Below are positions 27,832 through 34,845 of a DNA stretch of 64,000 nt, piece by piece (positions within the stretch are counted from its first letter, which is position 1; every line of letters starts with the position of its first letter). Under the pieces are notes generated by a model. That model was not told the DNA's origin. It searched no databases and saw only the letters and a list, made by a program, of their open reading frames with translations. Origin of the DNA: Methylocystis sp. Lineage in GTDB: Bacteria > Pseudomonadota > Alphaproteobacteria > Rhizobiales > Beijerinckiaceae. The stretch is from contig PERY01000004.1 of NCBI GenBank assembly GCA_002929055.1, positions 1-64,000 of the forward strand, read 5' to 3'. The position numbers and the translations under genes are program-made.

Positions 27832-28278
27832 ATGAACCTATTCGCCAGGACGCTGATCGCCTTTGCATCGCTCGCCGCCTTCGCCGCTGTTCCCGCAAGC
27901 GCGCAGGACCGGCCTGCCAAACCCTCGGGCCGCGTCACCATTCACCAGACGCAAATCGCCTTCATCGCCTCGGGGGCCGTCGGCGGCGGCACGCTCACCT
28001 TCAAGGGCCGTTCCTACAAGTTCAAATTGGGCGGCCTTGGCGTCGGCGGGGTCGGCGCCTCGCGTCTCGATGCTTCGGGCTCGGTCTACGACCTGGAAAA
28101 AGTCTCCGACTTCTCAGGCGCCTATGCGGCGATTCGGACAGGCTGGGCTCTTGGCGATCGCGGCAGGGGAAAAGTATGGCTGCGCAACGCCAATGGCGTC
28201 ACGATCAGCCTTCAGGGCAAGCGCAAGGGTTTGCAGACCGCGCTTGGCGCCGAAGGCGTCGTCATCTCGCTGAACTAG
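27832..28278 (+). CDS. Secreted hypothetical protein
   Basis: A 148-residue protein with a signal peptide (residues 1-25, ending ASAQD). The mature part is glycine-rich and probably all-beta: GGGTLTFKGRSYKFKLGGLGVGGVGASRLDASG, YDLEKVSDFSGAYAAIRTGWALG and LRNANGVTISLQGKRKG. I have seen similar periplasmic proteins in other proteobacteria but cannot name the family with confidence. AGAGGATGTA precedes the ATG. It converges on xseB with no gap. Confidence 0.72.
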   Translation: MNLFARTLIAFASLAAFAAVPASAQDRPAKPSGRVTIHQTQIAFIASGAVGGGTLTFKGRSYKFKLGGLGVGGVGASRLDASGSVYDLEKVSDFSGAYAAIRTGWALGDRGRGKVWLRNANGVTISLQGKRKGLQTALGAEGVVISLN

Positions 28279-28536
28279 CTACTCCACATCGAGCGGCGCG
28301 ACGCCTTTGGCGGCGCCGTTCTCGCCGATGGTGATCTTCTCGACGCGGGCTTCCGCTTCCGCCAGCAGCTTCTCGCAGCGCTCCTGCAGCGCCTTGCCGC
28401 GCGCATAGAGCTTCACCGAGTCGTCGAGCGTGACGGCGCCCTTCTCGAGGTCGCCGACGATGCTCTCGAGTTCCGCCATGGCTTTCTCGAAGGGCATGGC
28501 CGCGACGTCTGCGGCGGCTGGTTTTTCGCTTGTCAT
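28279..28536 (-). CDS. xseB: Exodeoxyribonuclease VII small subunit
   Basis: An 85-residue partner of XseA in the nuclease that degrades single-stranded DNA. The family pattern is complete: PFEKAMAELESIVGDLEKGAVTLDDSVKLYARGKALQERCEKLLAEAEARVEKI. AGGAAAAG precedes the ATG. It lies 48 bases after the P450 stop on the same strand and may be read through from that operon. In many Rhizobiales xseB sits between a deacetylase gene and dxs; here it does not. Confidence 0.95.
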   Translation of the reverse strand: MTSEKPAAADVAAMPFEKAMAELESIVGDLEKGAVTLDDSVKLYARGKALQERCEKLLAEAEARVEKITIGENGAAKGVAPLDVE

Positions 28537-28584
28537 GCCGCTTTTCCTACCCCAGCCGAGCGCGCTTGGCTACGCTGGCGAAGC

Positions 28585-29949
28585 TCAGTCGCTGACGACG
28601 GTGAAGTGCTGCGGAAAGGGCGGCGTGTCGCCGCCGTCGATTTCTCCGGCGGGGCGCAGGTTCTCGCGCGCGAGGATGGGCCGGAGCATCACGGGCAGGA
28701 CGGCGTGATTGATGTAGGCGCCGAAACATTCGTGGAAGCCGTAGCCCCAGAGAATATAATCCCCCCAAGGCCTGTCGGTGCGAAATGCGCGCGGGTCGTC
28801 GACCTTCAGTGGATCGAACATCGCCGAGAGATTCGCGGCGAAGACCATCGTTCCCTTCTTGATGCGGCGCGCGCGCAAGGTGGAGGCGGCGATCGTCACG
28901 TCGTGATTGGCGCGGCGATAGATCACCGGATTGATGGGATTGAAGCGAAGCGCCTCGAAGATATAGGCGCCGAGCGCGGCGTCGTCCCCAGCCTGTGCCG
29001 CCGCCCGGGCGCCGGACAGAGCCTCGGGCTTCGAGAAGAGCACGTCGAGCGCGCAGACCGACGCCTTCGAGAGCGTGGGAATGGCGCCGATGATGATGCC
29101 GACGAGATTGTTGCGGATGGCGAGATCGGTGAACTCCGGTCGGCTCGCCTGCAGCGCGAGCGCGCGGCCGAGAAGATCGTCCTTCTTTTCGCCGCTCGCC
29201 TTGCGGCGCGCGACAGCCTCGTCCACGCAGGCGCAGAGCTTCTGCGCGCAATCTTTCGCGCGGGCCTCCACCGCGGGATCGGCCGCAAGTTCCGCAAAGA
29301 GCCACCAGAACAGCACCGTCGACCAGGCGATGAGCTTATCTTCTTCGGGAGCCGCCACGCCGAAATAGTCGCGAACGATCGCCGCCGGCACGCGGGTCGT
29401 CAGCTCCGGGGGAAGGTCGATGCGATCGGGGTGCTCGGCGGCGAGCCGTTCGGCTTCGCGCCGCGCCAGCGGCTCGATGATCGTCTTGACGTCCTCGCGC
29501 GCCATGATGAGCCGCATGATGGAAACGTCGTGCTGATATTCGGCGCTGTTCTGCATGCCGAGAAAGAAGTTCTCTCCGTTCGAAAAATTTTCACGGTCAG
29601 TGAGCTTGCGCATGCGCGAGCCATAGACCACGGCGAAATCCGCCTCGCGGTCCAAAACCTCGATCACATCCTCGGCTCGGGTGACGAAAGCCGTTCCCGT
29701 GTTCTCATAGGACTTCACCAGCACTTTCGAGAGAACAAGGTTGGGAAGGACCGCACGCAACACCGTGAAAATATGGATGGCGGTCGAGTTCTTCCTGAGT
29801 TCCGGCGCGAGACGCGCCTTGAGCGGCCCCTGCCCCTTCCTCAGCGCGCCGTAGAATATCCTGACGAGCGCGACGAGAGAGATCGCCGCATGCGCCCAAA
29901 TCAGCGCGTGATTTTTCACAAGCGCGAAAATATTGTTGAAAAAGCTCAT
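28585..29949 (-). CDS. Cytochrome P450 with atypical I-helix, possible peroxygenase or hydroperoxide isomerase type
   Basis: A 454-residue P450. The K-helix ExxR is E332-R335 (FEALRF), and the heme-thiolate loop is WGYGFHECFG with Cys408. The I-helix reads NNLVGIIIGAIPTLSKA (about 281-296) and lacks the usual (A/G)Gx(D/E)T acid-threonine pair that activates oxygen. Loss of this pair is known in P450s that use peroxides directly, such as CYP74 and fungal Ppo fatty-acid hydroperoxide isomerases. The block RPWGDYILWGYGFHECFG and NLRPAG after it look Ppo-like to me, unchecked. No membrane anchor is certain. The gene starts 11 bases after the DyP gene's stop. Confidence 0.88.
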   Translation of the reverse strand: MSFFNNIFALVKNHALIWAHAAISLVALVRIFYGALRKGQGPLKARLAPELRKNSTAIHIFTVLRAVLPNLVLSKVLVKSYENTGTAFVTRAEDVIEVLDREADFAVVYGSRMRKLTDRENFSNGENFFLGMQNSAEYQHDVSIMRLIMAREDVKTIIEPLARREAERLAAEHPDRIDLPPELTTRVPAAIVRDYFGVAAPEEDKLIAWSTVLFWWLFAELAADPAVEARAKDCAQKLCACVDEAVARRKASGEKKDDLLGRALALQASRPEFTDLAIRNNLVGIIIGAIPTLSKASVCALDVLFSKPEALSGARAAAQAGDDAALGAYIFEALRFNPINPVIYRRANHDVTIAASTLRARRIKKGTMVFAANLSAMFDPLKVDDPRAFRTDRPWGDYILWGYGFHECFGAYINHAVLPVMLRPILARENLRPAGEIDGGDTPPFPQHFTVVSD

Positions 29950-29959
29950 GAGGCGCTCA

Positions 29960-31657
29960 TCAGGTGGGATCGACAGCCCCTTGCGCAATCAGGCGCAGGG
30001 CGGTCAGGCTGGGCACGAAGAAATAGTCGCCGCCGCGGGTCTCCACGAATTGCGGGAGACCTTCGACGATAAAGGGCGGGCGGGCGCCGTCCGGGTCCGC
30101 GGGCACGACGAATTTCGCCTTGGGCCCGTTGCGCTTGCGCGCATCGGGGTCGGACGTTTCGGCGCCTTGCGAATGATTGCCGACGATCGGACATGTGTCG
30201 CTGCCCGCGCGCGCGTCGAGCCCGTAATTGACCCACTGCTGTTGAACGAATTCAAATTGCCGGAAGAGATCGGCGCAGACCGTGAGCATGACGATGCCAT
30301 GCTCGCCCTCATCCGTCGCATCCGGGCCGGAGGCGCCATAAGGCAGGCCGCGACGTAAAATCCGGCGGCGGTTGTTGAGCACCGAGCCGCCCCTGAGCAA
30401 CGGATCAGCCTTTGGACGCGGATCGAGCCCATCGCGCGTGTTCGTGCGGCGGATATGCGAGGTGAGCGGGCACTTGCCACCCTTTGGATCGTCCGCGAAG
30501 GCGAAGTCGGAATAGGCGAGTTGCAGTTCCTTCTCTAATTCGCGGCGGCGCAACGGGTCGCCGAACTGGCTTTTCTTGAGCTGTTTCAGTTCGGCTTTCT
30601 TCGGGCCGTAAATGTCATCGAACTTGCGCTTTTCTTCGGGCGTCGGCGCCTTGGAGAGCGGCACGCCGTCACGCCAGCGCCCGATCATTTTGGCCACCAA
30701 CAATTCGCGCGCCTCATCAGCATCGGCGATGCCCGAGACCTTCTGGAAATCCGCCGCGGCCTTTACGAGGAAGTCCCGCCAGCTCTTCACATTCTCATGG
30801 ATCTTCCGGTAAGCCATGAAGGTTCCGTTTCGGAAGAACGGAATCGGCGTGATGGGGCCCGATGTTTCCTGCGCCTCGTCGGGATAGCCCAGAAGAAACT
30901 CGCCGGTGGCGATCGGGCGCCATTTCCCGTCGCCGTCCACCGCGCCATTGCCGCGCGCCTGAAGCTGCGCGTCGCCGAATGTGTATTGGCCTTCGAACAC
31001 CGGATCGCTGATGCCGTCAGCGAAACCGAAATGCTCCGAGCGGCGCGCCTCGCCATCCGGCCCGAAGAGCGCGTTCAAATCCTGATGCGGCTCGCTCTTC
31101 GCGCCCTTCTGGTTGTGGCCGACGAGCAGCGTGACTTGGTTGTCCCGCGCAAACGTCTTCACCTGCTCGGTCAGCTCGTCCATTTGCGCCCGCGTATCCG
31201 GCTGCGCGTTGAGCGACACGAGAATATGCGCCGGCTTTGCGTCGGCCTGCCAGATTTCATCCCATTTCTCGCGCCAGCCCGCGCCCTCGAAATCATCGCC
31301 GAGCATGCGGGCGCGCTTCGCCATGCCGTCGATGAAAGGATCCGGCATGGCGCGCAAGGTGCGCGTCGAAACGCCGAGCGCGGCGAGGCCCGGGAAAGTG
31401 AAAGCGACATTGAGAGTCGCCGCCGGCTTGGGCACGAGCCGCTCGCCGGGCCGGGAGGGTTTGCCCTCCCAGCGCAGCGCGCTCGTCACAAGCGGCCGCA
31501 GGGCCTCGATGAACTTCTGTCCGTTGGCGGCGCGGCGATCGGGATCGCCCACGTCGTCGATGTGGAAGAGGATGAGGCGTCCATAGGGAAACCCCTGCTT
31601 GCCATAGCCGGCGATGATATTGCCCTGGATGTCGGCGAGATCGAGCGTAACGGCCAT
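29960..31657 (-). CDS. DyP-type heme peroxidase family protein
   Basis: A 565-residue protein starting MAVTLDLADIQGNIIAGYGK, a fungal-type DyP N-terminus. The distal motif GFADGISDP (D214, G215) is intact. The proximal heme His is probably H401 in LTSHIRRTN, and the distal Arg lies in NNRRRILRRGLPYG (about 429-440). No Tat or Sec leader, so it is cytoplasmic. DyP enzymes oxidise diverse substrates with hydrogen peroxide. At about 565 residues it is longer than most bacterial DyPs. A GTG at 31663 is an alternative start overlapping the upstream gene. It is flanked by the P450 and an uncharacterised membrane protein. Confidence 0.92.
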   Translation of the reverse strand: MAVTLDLADIQGNIIAGYGKQGFPYGRLILFHIDDVGDPDRRAANGQKFIEALRPLVTSALRWEGKPSRPGERLVPKPAATLNVAFTFPGLAALGVSTRTLRAMPDPFIDGMAKRARMLGDDFEGAGWREKWDEIWQADAKPAHILVSLNAQPDTRAQMDELTEQVKTFARDNQVTLLVGHNQKGAKSEPHQDLNALFGPDGEARRSEHFGFADGISDPVFEGQYTFGDAQLQARGNGAVDGDGKWRPIATGEFLLGYPDEAQETSGPITPIPFFRNGTFMAYRKIHENVKSWRDFLVKAAADFQKVSGIADADEARELLVAKMIGRWRDGVPLSKAPTPEEKRKFDDIYGPKKAELKQLKKSQFGDPLRRRELEKELQLAYSDFAFADDPKGGKCPLTSHIRRTNTRDGLDPRPKADPLLRGGSVLNNRRRILRRGLPYGASGPDATDEGEHGIVMLTVCADLFRQFEFVQQQWVNYGLDARAGSDTCPIVGNHSQGAETSDPDARKRNGPKAKFVVPADPDGARPPFIVEGLPQFVETRGGDYFFVPSLTALRLIAQGAVDPT

Positions 31658-31659
31658 CT

Positions 31660-32688
31660 TCACGCTCCCATGCCGATTGTGCCCGCGCCCTGCGTGGGCG
31701 CGGCGACGTTCTTTGGATCGTGTGCAGCGGCGAACGTCTGGAAACGCGCCTGCAGCTCTTTAGCGGAGGCTTCGTCGTCACCGGCGGCGAGAAGCTGATT
31801 GTCAATGGCGAAGCGCGTGAAATGATCACGCAGATAAAGCGCCTTCAGCACATCGGGCAGCGTCGCGTCCGGCGCGGCGGGAAAGGACTTCTCGCCAGCG
31901 TGCTTCGCCATCATGATGATAACCAGGAGGCCCGTGAGAGCGGCGAGAAACACATGCAGGAGCCACAGCAGATGCGAGGCTGAGCCGCCGATCGCCTGCA
32001 GCAGGAAATAGACCGCCGCGGCCACGGCCAGAAAGACGCCGGTGAATCGCAAGATGCTGATTTCAGGCAGCGCGCCCTCCTCCAGGTGAAGGCTGTCGGG
32101 CTTCTTCTTGAGCGGTATGCCGTCGAGAAAATAGTCGTGGAAAGGCATGGTCGTCTTGAGCTGGCAGCGCGCGATATAGGCCGCAAAACTCTCCGCGTCC
32201 GTCACCTCGTCGAAGCGCTCGCAGTGCCGGAACACCTCGCGCAGTTCGTCGCCCGCGCTCGTCCAGAGCTCCTTCAGATAGGCGTCCCGCTCGCTGGCGT
32301 CGCCGCTCCTGGCGTCGAAGTCGGCGGAGAAGAAAAGGAACGGGTTGGAAAGATGGTCCTGGTCCTGCGGCGTGACGGGATTGATGTGAAAGCGCGCCGG
32401 CAGCAGCAGTTCCGTCAGGACCGTGAGGAGCGCGTTGATCGGCTTGCGCCCGACATAGGCGACATCCTCGATGACGACCATGCGCACGAAATGATTGCGC
32501 ATATTCTTGGCGAAGGGGCTGACGCCCGTTGCTTCCGGAACCTGCTGCGCGGTTTTCAGCCCGGCAAGAGCACTGCGCAACAACTGCACAGGAGAGGTTT
32601 GCGCGCCGGTCCTGGGGTCTTCGACGGCGGCGGTCTTCACCGGAATGAGCGTCGAAAGAAAATAAGCTCCACAATCGAAATTCGGCAT
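31660..32688 (-). CDS. Uncharacterised membrane protein of the P450-DyP operon
   Basis: A 342-residue protein beginning MPNFDCGAYFLSTLIPV. Residues 50-190 are a soluble domain with NHFVRMVVI (65-73), PFLFFSADFD (116-125), FRHC (153-156) and RCQLKTTMPFHDYF. Two membrane helices follow at about 213-231 and 237-260. A C-terminal cytoplasmic part contains LPDVLKALYLRDHFTRFAIDNQ. The HFxR and LFFSADFD motifs recur in the upstream gene's product. No known family is recognised. Its stop lies 2 bases before the DyP ATG, so tight coupling is likely; an anchor for the peroxidase or P450 is a guess. Confidence 0.8.
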   Translation of the reverse strand: MPNFDCGAYFLSTLIPVKTAAVEDPRTGAQTSPVQLLRSALAGLKTAQQVPEATGVSPFAKNMRNHFVRMVVIEDVAYVGRKPINALLTVLTELLLPARFHINPVTPQDQDHLSNPFLFFSADFDARSGDASERDAYLKELWTSAGDELREVFRHCERFDEVTDAESFAAYIARCQLKTTMPFHDYFLDGIPLKKKPDSLHLEEGALPEISILRFTGVFLAVAAAVYFLLQAIGGSASHLLWLLHVFLAALTGLLVIIMMAKHAGEKSFPAAPDATLPDVLKALYLRDHFTRFAIDNQLLAAGDDEASAKELQARFQTFAAAHDPKNVAAPTQGAGTIGMGA

Positions 32689-32727
32689 GACGTTTCCCGC
32701 AAGAAAGAGAAGAAATGAAGCGACGGC

Positions 32728-33357
32728 TCAGGCGCCGTTGCGTTTTCTTTCGGCGAAATAGGTGTCGTTGCTTGCAACCGGCGCATAACCCTGCGCGCCA
32801 AGATCATGCTGCACTTTCAGCAGCCGCGCGACATAGGACTTGCGGAATTCAGCCGGCGAGAGTTCGCGGCTCTCCTGTGCGAGCGCGAGCAGCTCCCGCC
32901 GCACGCGCAGCGCCGACTTCACGTCCCATTGCGCGGCGCCGGGCGTCGCATTGTAATAGAAGTCCGTGTCCGCCTGATTGACGCGGATATATTCCTTGAA
33001 GGGCGTTATCGGAATCGACTGGGGATATTTCGTGCTGGTGGTCCAGAAGAAATCCAGCCCGCTCGGGAACCCGTCCGCGAAGGCGTCGATATACTGATCC
33101 CAGGTTCCGTTAAAATTGCTGCAAAAGAGCAGATAGTCGTTTTGCAGATTCTGCTTGCCCTGGCCGAGATCGGTCCAGTCGTCGCGTCGCACGATCACCC
33201 AGCGCGCGAAATGAATGAATGACAGGCCGAGAAGCGATGTGAGGGTCGACGGCTTCGCCCGCGCGAACATGAAACTGAATTCATTTAGCCAGGTGAGATA
33301 ACGCCGCATCGGCGAAATGGCGTTAATTGCGTAAGCTTTTCCAGCGACGTTCGACAT
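32728..33357 (-). CDS. Uncharacterised first protein of the P450-DyP operon
   Basis: A 209-residue protein that begins MSNVAGKAYAINAISPMRRYL; GAGG nine bases before this ATG supports the start. It contains FIHFARWVIVRRDDW (48-62) and NDYLLFCSNFNGTWDQYIDAFADGFP (73-98), which echo the HFVRMVVI and FLFFSADFD motifs of the next gene's product. The remainder (FFWTTSTKYPQSIPITPFKEYI) is aromatic-rich. No signal peptide or certain membrane helix. Probably a dimeric ferredoxin-like alpha/beta domain by style, function unknown. It is 39 bases upstream of the membrane-protein gene. Confidence 0.78.
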   Translation of the reverse strand: MSNVAGKAYAINAISPMRRYLTWLNEFSFMFARAKPSTLTSLLGLSFIHFARWVIVRRDDWTDLGQGKQNLQNDYLLFCSNFNGTWDQYIDAFADGFPSGLDFFWTTSTKYPQSIPITPFKEYIRVNQADTDFYYNATPGAAQWDVKSALRVRRELLALAQESRELSPAEFRKSYVARLLKVQHDLGAQGYAPVASNDTYFAERKRNGA

Positions 33358-33450
33358 AGCAAGCGCCTCGAAATTCAAAAATCAATCCAAAGCGAAGCCT
33401 ATGGCCAATCTCCAAAAAAGACAAGACACCGTGAAGGTTACGTTACAACG

Positions 33451-34845
33451 TCAGTGATCCTCAGGCTCCGCATGTCCGACGATCCGAACGATTTCGGGAT
33501 ATTCTTCGCGCACGCGCCGCTCCAGTTCATCCACCGCAGCGTGCATCGCCTCCACCGACGCCGCGGCCTCCACGCGGCAATGATAATTGACGACAAGGCC
33601 GCCCGCAGTCTCGCGCACGCGCACGTCATGCACGTCCGAGATATATGCAAGGGGCTCGGCGAATCGATCCAGCGCCTGCACGATCTCGCTCGCAAAGGCG
33701 GCGTCGGCGTCGCGCCCGATCAGAACATGTGGCGACAAGGGCTCGATATGCGTTTCGATCTCGACGTCGGAGCCGAACTCGTCACGAATGGCGCTTTCGA
33801 AGCTGGTGGCGATGGCGTGGGCGCGTCCGACGGGCATGGCGCCGTCGAGTTCGATGTCGAGGCCGATGCAAAGCCGCCCCGCGATCTCCTGCGCGATGAT
33901 GTGATGCGCCGTGACGTGACGGCGTGAGGCGACGAGCATGATGCGCTCCACGATCGTCTCGTCGTCGAGCGCATGGGCGCTCGTGGCCACGGTCACGCGC
34001 GCATGGGGCGCGACGCCAAGAATGGCGGCCGACACCATTTCCTTGATGCGCGCCGCCTGCTCGACCCGAAGGCTGCGGGCGACGCCGATCACCGCCTCGC
34101 CGACGACCTCCGCCCCCATGCTGCGCAACCGCAGCGCGTCGAGGGAAATGACGCCCGGCACATTCCGGATCGCTGTTTCGAGCTGGGGCGCAAGGTCGCC
34201 GGGAGCCGCATCGAGCAGCGTATCGATCGTCCGGCGGCCAAGGCGGTAGCCGGCGACGGCGATAAAGCCGGCGACGCCGAAGGAGGCGAGCGCGTCGCCC
34301 TGCGGAAAGCCGAAATGCACGGCGGCGATGCCGATGAGCGCGAGGACCGAGGAAACAAGGTCGCTCGCAAAATGCATGGCGTCGGCGGCGAGCGCGTCGC
34401 TGCGCTCCTCCTTCGCGATGAGGCCAAGCTGGCGCGCGCGCACGAAGTCGACCACTATCGAGCCTGCAAGCACGCCATACACGGGCCAGCCGACGTCGAT
34501 CACAACATCGGATTCTCCCAGCCGGCGAATGGCCTCGCCGACGACGACGAGGGCGAGGCCGAACAAGAGGCCCGTCTCGACAAGCGCGGCCAGCGCCTCA
34601 TATTTACCATGTCCGAAGTGATGCTCCGCGTCGGCGGGCTTTTCCGCCTCCCGCACCGCGTAATAGGTCAGAGCCGTCGCGCCCGTGTCGACGAAGGCGT
34701 GACCGGCCTCGGAAAGCAGCGCCAGCGACCCCGACCAGAGCCCGGCGGCGAGCTTGGCGGCGGCAAGCAGGGCGCTTGCGGCGATGGAGGCCCTTGCGGC
34801 CGTGAGCTTGCGGCTGGCGCGGGGCTGTAGGGTTGTTTGGGTCAT
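33451..34845 (-). CDS. Cation diffusion facilitator family transporter
   Basis: A 464-residue inner-membrane metal/proton antiporter. The six-helix domain spans about residues 18-215. Metal-site motifs are HAFVD in helix 2 ([11 protein letters not shown]) and DAMHFASD in helix 5. GHGKYE marks the cytoplasmic loop. The C-terminal part is unusually long (about 250 residues) and seems to hold two or more ferredoxin-like metal-sensing modules in tandem ([49 protein letters not shown]). The metal, Zn, Fe, Mn or Co, cannot be assigned. Confidence 0.92.

Follow-up and report, generated by a model that had tools for sequence, protein, structure and literature searches.

We describe a four-gene operon on the minus strand of a 64,000-nucleotide stretch of DNA from Methylocystis sp. 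(GenBank assembly GCA_002929055.1, contig PERY01000004.1, positions 1 to 64,000; hereafter the window), which encodes two proteins of an unnamed family (U1 and U2), a DyP-type peroxidase, and a cytochrome P450. That U1, U2, DyP, and P450 are linked as one system we regard as very nearly certain: the set recurs elsewhere in conserved order, and relatives carry its parts fused into single polypeptide chains. Together, the gene set and the fusions suggest that bacteria have an as yet undescribed equivalent of the two-heme enzymes with which fungi produce fatty-acid signals. The best explanation of the whole, which we find about as much reason to believe as to doubt, is a membrane two-heme system held together by U1 and U2, in which the P450 would use peroxide and the product would be oxylipin-like.

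Conservation of the set was followed in two collections of loci (the L numbers are our own labels). Of 298 genomes in the window's family, 18 have a U2 match, counting the window's own. The 17 others yielded 18 loci, and in every one U1, U2, and DyP follow one another as in the window (the DyP gene of L021 is cut by a contig edge, and U1 of L037 is split between two frames). An intact P450 is present in 13 of these 18 loci; it is fragmentary in L028, L036, and L037, absent from L033, and past the contig edge in L021, whose genome has a copy on another contig, found when 296 family genomes were searched for the P450. Because it is fragmentary or absent in four loci where U1, U2, and DyP stay, the P450 seems to be the most expendable part. 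The 20 genomes of the same genus that were listed along with the window's own yielded no U2, which suggests operon loss or horizontal gain within the genus.

Scanning genome contigs with only the U1 alignment, and so without any choice of neighbors, gave at least 74 loci; four of the 74 listed (L039, L040, L042, and L108) repeat genomes of the family set. The matches listed come from Alpha-, Beta-, and Gammaproteobacteria, a cyanobacterial metagenome-assembled genome (MAG), a Solibacteraceae MAG, Frankia, and Streptomyces, and among them the order U1–U2–DyP–P450 is kept in the three proteobacterial classes, the cyanobacterial MAG, and Actinomycetota. DyP is present in 72 of the 74 listed loci, and both exceptions (L049 and L091) stop at a contig edge. 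A second U protein is likewise found in 72, the exceptions being L086, where U1 and U2 share one open reading frame (ORF), and L091, which ends. The P450 occurs in 48: on the same strand 3′ of DyP in 46, convergent in L093, and upstream in L104. Recurrence in tens of genomes makes the four-gene arrangement more than chance. In 14 of the 74 loci, the P450 is directly followed by a GST-like gene, as it also is in L035 of the family set (Pfam was run on three GST-like ORFs, those of L063, L062, and L035); other recurrent neighbor clusters, of 5–11 loci each, look by eye like antisense ORFs or surrounding transporter and regulator genes. Several loci carry peculiarities of their own. In L104 (1263-9743, Crenothrix), a divergent P450 (I-helix VANPQ), U1, U2, and DyP are followed by genes for a GMC oxidoreductase and for an alpha/beta hydrolase. 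In L052 (14612-15211, Falsiroseomonas), a CMD-family protein begins 6 bases past the P450, and L051 has an ORF of equal length and spacing. Split genes (U2, DyP, and P450 in L077; U2 in L088) reflect either decay or sequence errors.

The strongest evidence that the parts work together is their fusion in one chain, seen both among the best P450 relatives retrieved from outside the operon and on plasmids. In the full build, a single chain of 1,400–1,630 residues joins a P450, a stretch with weak similarity to U2, a hydrophobic hairpin, a U1-like domain, and DyP. It is present as single ORFs in L115 (1408 aa) and L121 (1471 aa) and as single deposited coding sequences on complete plasmid records in L123, L125, and L132, the plasmid fusions belonging to Pararhizobium, Novosphingobium, and Sulfitobacter. 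WP_011907039.1 of Novosphingobium aromaticivorans is one such single-chain protein. In L119, L122, and L147, the P450 instead adjoins a fusion of hairpin, U1-like domain, and DyP. L150 (710-3733) holds a 1007-aa DyP–P450 fusion in the reverse order to the others, with a very divergent P450. Against a profile built without these four proteins, the U1-like parts of L115, L119, L121, and L122 gave E values of 1.7e-7, 6.2e-7, 4.6e-6, and 9.5e-8, respectively. The U2-like segment, taken from nine fusions, matched a wider U2 set by hhalign at E 7e-5 (probability 63), the first U2 set at 4.6e-4 (33), and U1 at 1.3e-3 (18). For fusion calls and for the class search given below, we used a profile (A5) that includes the window's U1 and the U-like parts of L035, L046, L101, L104, L106, L109, L110, L111, L114, L115, L119, L121, and L122, which match it by construction. 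A literature search with partial coverage (titles and the starts of abstracts) found no description of a DyP–P450 operon or fusion, and one on oleate hydratase found nothing related. A preliminary description of the window, made from its sequence, had proposed two dedicated accessory proteins and a functional link between DyP and P450, and had left open whether the four genes co-occur in conserved order elsewhere. They do; U1 and U2 accompany DyP wherever the locus has room, and the fusions speak for the link.

In the window itself, the operon reads U1, U2, DyP, P450 from position 33357 down to 28585 (Table 1). All four ORFs have the lengths given in the preliminary description, and of its intergenic gaps of 39, 2, and 11 bases the first two are correct, the third measuring 10. 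Scanning of 28250-33800 for promoters and terminators returned 1 promoter-like and 15 terminator-like matches, none of them usable.

Table 1. Genes of the operon in the window, in order of transcription.
Gene	Coordinates	Strand	Length (aa)	Features
U1	32728..33357	-	209	unnamed family; motif IHFARW...SNFNGTWDQYIDAF; homologous to U2
U2	31660..32688	-	342	U1 paralogue; inserted hydrophobic hairpin; probable membrane anchor
DyP-type peroxidase	29960..31657	-	565	Asp214, His401, and Arg432/435/436 kept
P450	28585..29949	-	454	ExxR and heme Cys kept; I-helix IGAIPT; hydrophobic N-terminal stretch

Neither U protein is recognized by a Pfam model above cut-off, and NCBIfam has no model above cut-off for any of the four products. 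Profile comparison of U1 with U2 (hhalign probability 99.3, E 5e-20) identifies the two as paralogues. A simple hydropathy plot of U2 marks two hydrophobic segments, at residues 212-230 and 240-258, and this hairpin is probably a membrane anchor. No sequence homology to the operon's DyP was found for U1 or U2 by profile comparison. The structure prediction for U1 was unusable (pLDDT 46), and the predicted structure of U2 had no Foldseek match at E 0.001 or better.

The window P450 can be assigned to the cytochrome P450 superfamily, scoring 34.6 bits against the Pfam p450 model (cut-off 22.8). The ExxR Glu and Arg and the heme Cys, both correctly noted in the preliminary description, are present in all 82 aligned rows, and a hydrophobic stretch spans residues 15-33 by simple hydropathy. 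The same description had seen no acid-Thr pair in the I-helix. This is half right: Pro occupies the position of the proton-relay acid, so the acid-alcohol pair of class I monooxygenases is not found in the window P450, but the Thr is retained. Loss of the acid is the rule in P450s linked to a DyP, whether beside it or fused to it, with 69 of 73 rows lacking it and 59 of these reading Pro-Thr. After removal of one duplicate (the P450 of L146 is identical to that of L066), the acid is absent from 68 of 72 distinct linked P450s versus 2 of 8 unlinked ones, where unlinked means no DyP within a fetched stretch of ~11 kb, and the eight come from six genomes. Since this contrast counts related sequences, we take it as a pattern and not as a test of significance. 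The residue count covers 81 rows and excludes L036, the repeats L039, L040, and L042, and four pieces shorter than 380 aa (two of L077 and one each of L028 and L037). A tree of 66 rows (16 of the 82 were dropped, namely 15 operon rows judged similar to kept ones and the broken L036) has long branches; the acid label needs 3 changes on it, and it is compatible with one origin.

The preliminary description had also remarked that no ferredoxin or reductase gene accompanies the P450, and we recognized no redox-partner gene nearby. Around the 48 P450 loci, ferredoxin patterns matched only in two ORFs that look spurious; the sensitivity of the 2Fe-2S pattern is limited, because as a control it matched 2 of 7 Fer2 loci in the window's own genome, and the 3Fe-4S/4Fe-4S pattern had no control. 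An own-genome search with PF00067 missed the window's own P450 and is thus uninformative about other P450s. The own-genome search with PF02461 was uninformative too, its control having matched nowhere.

The window's peroxidase can likewise be placed in the DyP-type peroxidase superfamily. Both DyP_N and Dyp_perox_C exceed their Pfam cut-offs (36.9 and 26.6 bits, against 27.5 and 20), and the NCBIfam DyP superfamily model TIGR01413 scores 91.0 bits, under its cut-off of 100.5. In the alignment, Asp214 is kept in 78 of 79 rows, and His401 and Arg432/435/436 in all 79; we take Asp214 (GxxDG) to be the distal aspartate, His401 the proximal histidine, and the arginines to be distal. Viral contigs scanned with DyP contained no relative.

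U proteins and DyP also travel together in more distant cassettes. We opened 24 plasmid regions, hand-picked from larger record listings and thus non-random, in which a U-like protein is fused to DyP, adjoins it, or lies one gene off (L166). An annotated catalase or catalase-family gene of about 320-385 aa is present in 13 of the 24, together with a P450 in L157; four have a P450 without a catalase (that of L125 by profile only), and seven have neither. Among five of these catalase-like proteins, the Pfam Catalase model is above cut-off in one, below it in three, and absent in one; all five keep the R...Y......R pattern and have Ala before the distal His. The catalase-like protein of L164 also scores above the Pfam cut-off. 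Phmmer with two catalase-like proteins found nothing in the PDB at E 0.001. Fatty-acid genes (oleate hydratase, 3-hydroxyacyl-CoA dehydrogenase, thioesterase, or patatin) lie near 7 of the 13 catalase-like cassettes (L129, L133, L155, L156, L158, L160, and L161), with oleate hydratase near three. In these three, the catalase-like–U–DyP cassette stands by both oleate hydratase and 3-hydroxyacyl-CoA dehydrogenase on a plasmid (L155, 2372-5483; L156, 2372-5489; L160, 2460-5566). The cassette U protein is over 90% identical across records of Agrobacterium, Novosphingobium, Roseomonas, Shinella, Sphingobium, and Methylobacterium (74% for the L160 copy), which points to a mobile cassette, and several plasmid cassettes, being near-identical mobile copies, are not independent. 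Among 289 genomes of the class searched with the diverse U profile, 9 gave matches, the window's own being one of them. In the nine regions from the other eight genomes, DyP adjoins or is fused with U in eight, L152 stopping at a contig edge; a P450 is present in five (L146 to L150, on the opposite strand in L149), L154 has a catalase-like gene, and L151 and L153 have neither. L153 (6926-10534) encodes a 1202-aa U–DyP protein whose final ~460 residues have no Pfam match at E 0.01.

We propose that the operon encodes one membrane-associated two-heme system. U1 and U2 would pair as ferredoxin-like subunits and tether DyP and the P450 at the membrane, which would let an intermediate pass between the two hemes; for U2, a dimeric alpha+beta barrel (ABM-like) is a candidate fold. 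Like CYP152 or the P450 part of fungal Ppo enzymes, the P450 may consume peroxide or an organic hydroperoxide directly instead of running an O2/NAD(P)H cycle; we lean toward such a peroxide-driven P450, which the preliminary description had suggested along with an oxylipin pathway. DyP would either generate the hydroperoxide from a lipid through radical chemistry or clear its excess. The weakest step concerns the substrate, possibly an unsaturated lipid and probably a fatty acid, with an oxylipin-like product that may sometimes pass to a GST-like fifth enzyme; lipid or oxylipin chemistry is a tentative assignment, somewhat short of an even bet. A narrower proposal, in which the operon represents a new class of bacterial membrane-bound oxylipin synthase, with DyP making a lipid hydroperoxide, a self-sufficient P450 rearranging it, a ferredoxin-fold U1/U2 pair holding the hemes, and the small catalase-like protein serving as an alternative second enzyme, seems to us rather doubtful.

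Several observations weigh against the proposed two-heme system. The P450 is optional, being undetected in 19 of the 67 listed loci with room for it (of the 26 without a match, seven had less than 1.5 kb of room, and downstream ORFs were listed only) and fragmentary in three family loci, and some loci in which it is absent or broken retain U1-U2-DyP. This is what one would expect if a membrane-bound U1-U2-DyP unit reduced lipid hydroperoxides or H2O2 with the P450 or the catalase-like protein as an optional scavenger and no signal as product. Detoxification of this kind would also account for the catalase-family genes annotated in 13 of the 24 plasmid regions, for katG and a Fur regulator in the L127 region, and for the CMD-family protein that is the 3′ neighbor of the P450 in L052; the CMD family includes AhpD peroxidases. 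A P450, however, would be a costly scavenger, its motifs are strongly conserved among 12 aligned sequences, and the GST-like genes, together with the fatty-acid genes of the distant cassettes, suggest metabolism. We rate detoxification as unlikely.

The P450 might also be a conventional monooxygenase fed by a distant ferredoxin, with DyP shielding the membrane from uncoupled H2O2. The retained Thr, the acid kept in four DyP-linked P450s (L122, L147, L148, and L157), and the Fer2 genes present elsewhere in the window's genome all agree with this, as do the PDB proteins that match the P450 profile: among the best 60 of 248, those with a family name are ordinary bacterial P450s or P450nor, CYP152 and CYP74 do not occur as names, and many bear no family name. 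Set against it are the loss of the acid in nearly all distinct linked P450s, the lack of a recognized redox gene nearby (within the sensitivity of the pattern given above), and fusions in which the partner of the P450 is DyP, not a reductase. We consider a conventional monooxygenase distinctly improbable. Carotenoid-degrading DyP enzymes are known, and membrane anchoring would fit a pathway in which DyP and P450 degrade a carotenoid or other membrane isoprenoid and not a fatty acid. Only the fatty-acid genes near distant catalase-like cassettes point elsewhere, and carotenoid genes may yet lie among the recurrent neighbor clusters, which were judged by eye. We give isoprenoid cleavage very little credence.

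If a peroxide-using two-heme system on lipid is correct, its unrelated peroxidase and its presence in several phyla would mean an independent origin of two-heme lipid-signal chemistry, and, should the oxylipin-synthase proposal hold, bacteria would have arrived by convergence, and without COX, at a parallel to prostaglandin and Ppo biosynthesis. It would also give one DyP lineage a concrete role and two orphan protein families a name, and it would offer single-chain P450–DyP enzymes to biocatalysis.

Known systems share parts of this design. The nearest DyPs in the PDB, a 'Peroxidase, putative' (8re3) and D-type DyPs (7anv), have the Asp, His, and Arg in common with the window's enzyme; its constant U1/U2 neighbors and the P450 fusions of its relatives set it apart from known dye-decolorizing peroxidases and were found described nowhere in the literature searched. 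CYP152 enzymes (P450BSbeta, OleT) resemble the operon P450 in having no acid-alcohol pair, and the latter has no recognized redox-partner gene nearby. CYP152 carries Arg-Pro at the two positions (PMC5818669), whereas the window P450 has Pro-Thr with no Arg at that site, and Arg-Pro occurs in no aligned row; on this evidence the window P450 is not a CYP152. Plant allene oxide synthase (AOS, CYP74) has Asn321 at the distal I-helix position, an Asn that is not indispensable according to PMC13049297, and the window P450 differs in having Thr there, a comparison of residues and not of trees. The coral fusions of a catalase-related AOS or HPL with a lipoxygenase (LOX), as described in PMC5617202, couple a catalase-like heme enzyme to a source of hydroperoxide, much as the distant U–DyP cassettes carry a small catalase-like protein; the first enzyme is a lipoxygenase in the corals and DyP in the cassettes, and Thr66 of the coral AOS (PMC5617202) contrasts with Ala in the five aligned catalase-like proteins.

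A further likeness is to fungal Ppo, or linoleate diol synthase (DOX-CYP), a comparison already drawn in the preliminary description that we uphold as one of functional analogues. Fungi produce lipid signals with two-heme pairs of a peroxidase and a P450, and animals do so with the two as separate enzymes (PMC13049297). Ppo enzymes form a fatty-acid hydroperoxide and isomerize it, chemistry that the operon's enzymes may parallel. The operon is not itself a Ppo, since its partner is DyP where Ppo has a COX-like (animal-type) heme peroxidase, and P450 and DyP are unfused in the window, being fused in L115, L121, L123, L125, L132, and L150. It further adds the U1/U2 subunits and a hydrophobic hairpin, and its P450 has Pro for the acid with the Thr kept. 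At the distal position, the fungal CYP partners carry Asn, Thr, or a nonpolar residue, and as far as is known these partners are self-sufficient (PMC13049297); because they may carry Thr, the Thr kept here would be compatible with hydroperoxide use. What the two systems would share is a two-heme pair of a peroxidase and a self-sufficient P450, an I-helix without the usual acid-alcohol pair, and the one-chain fusion, found here in relatives of the operon.

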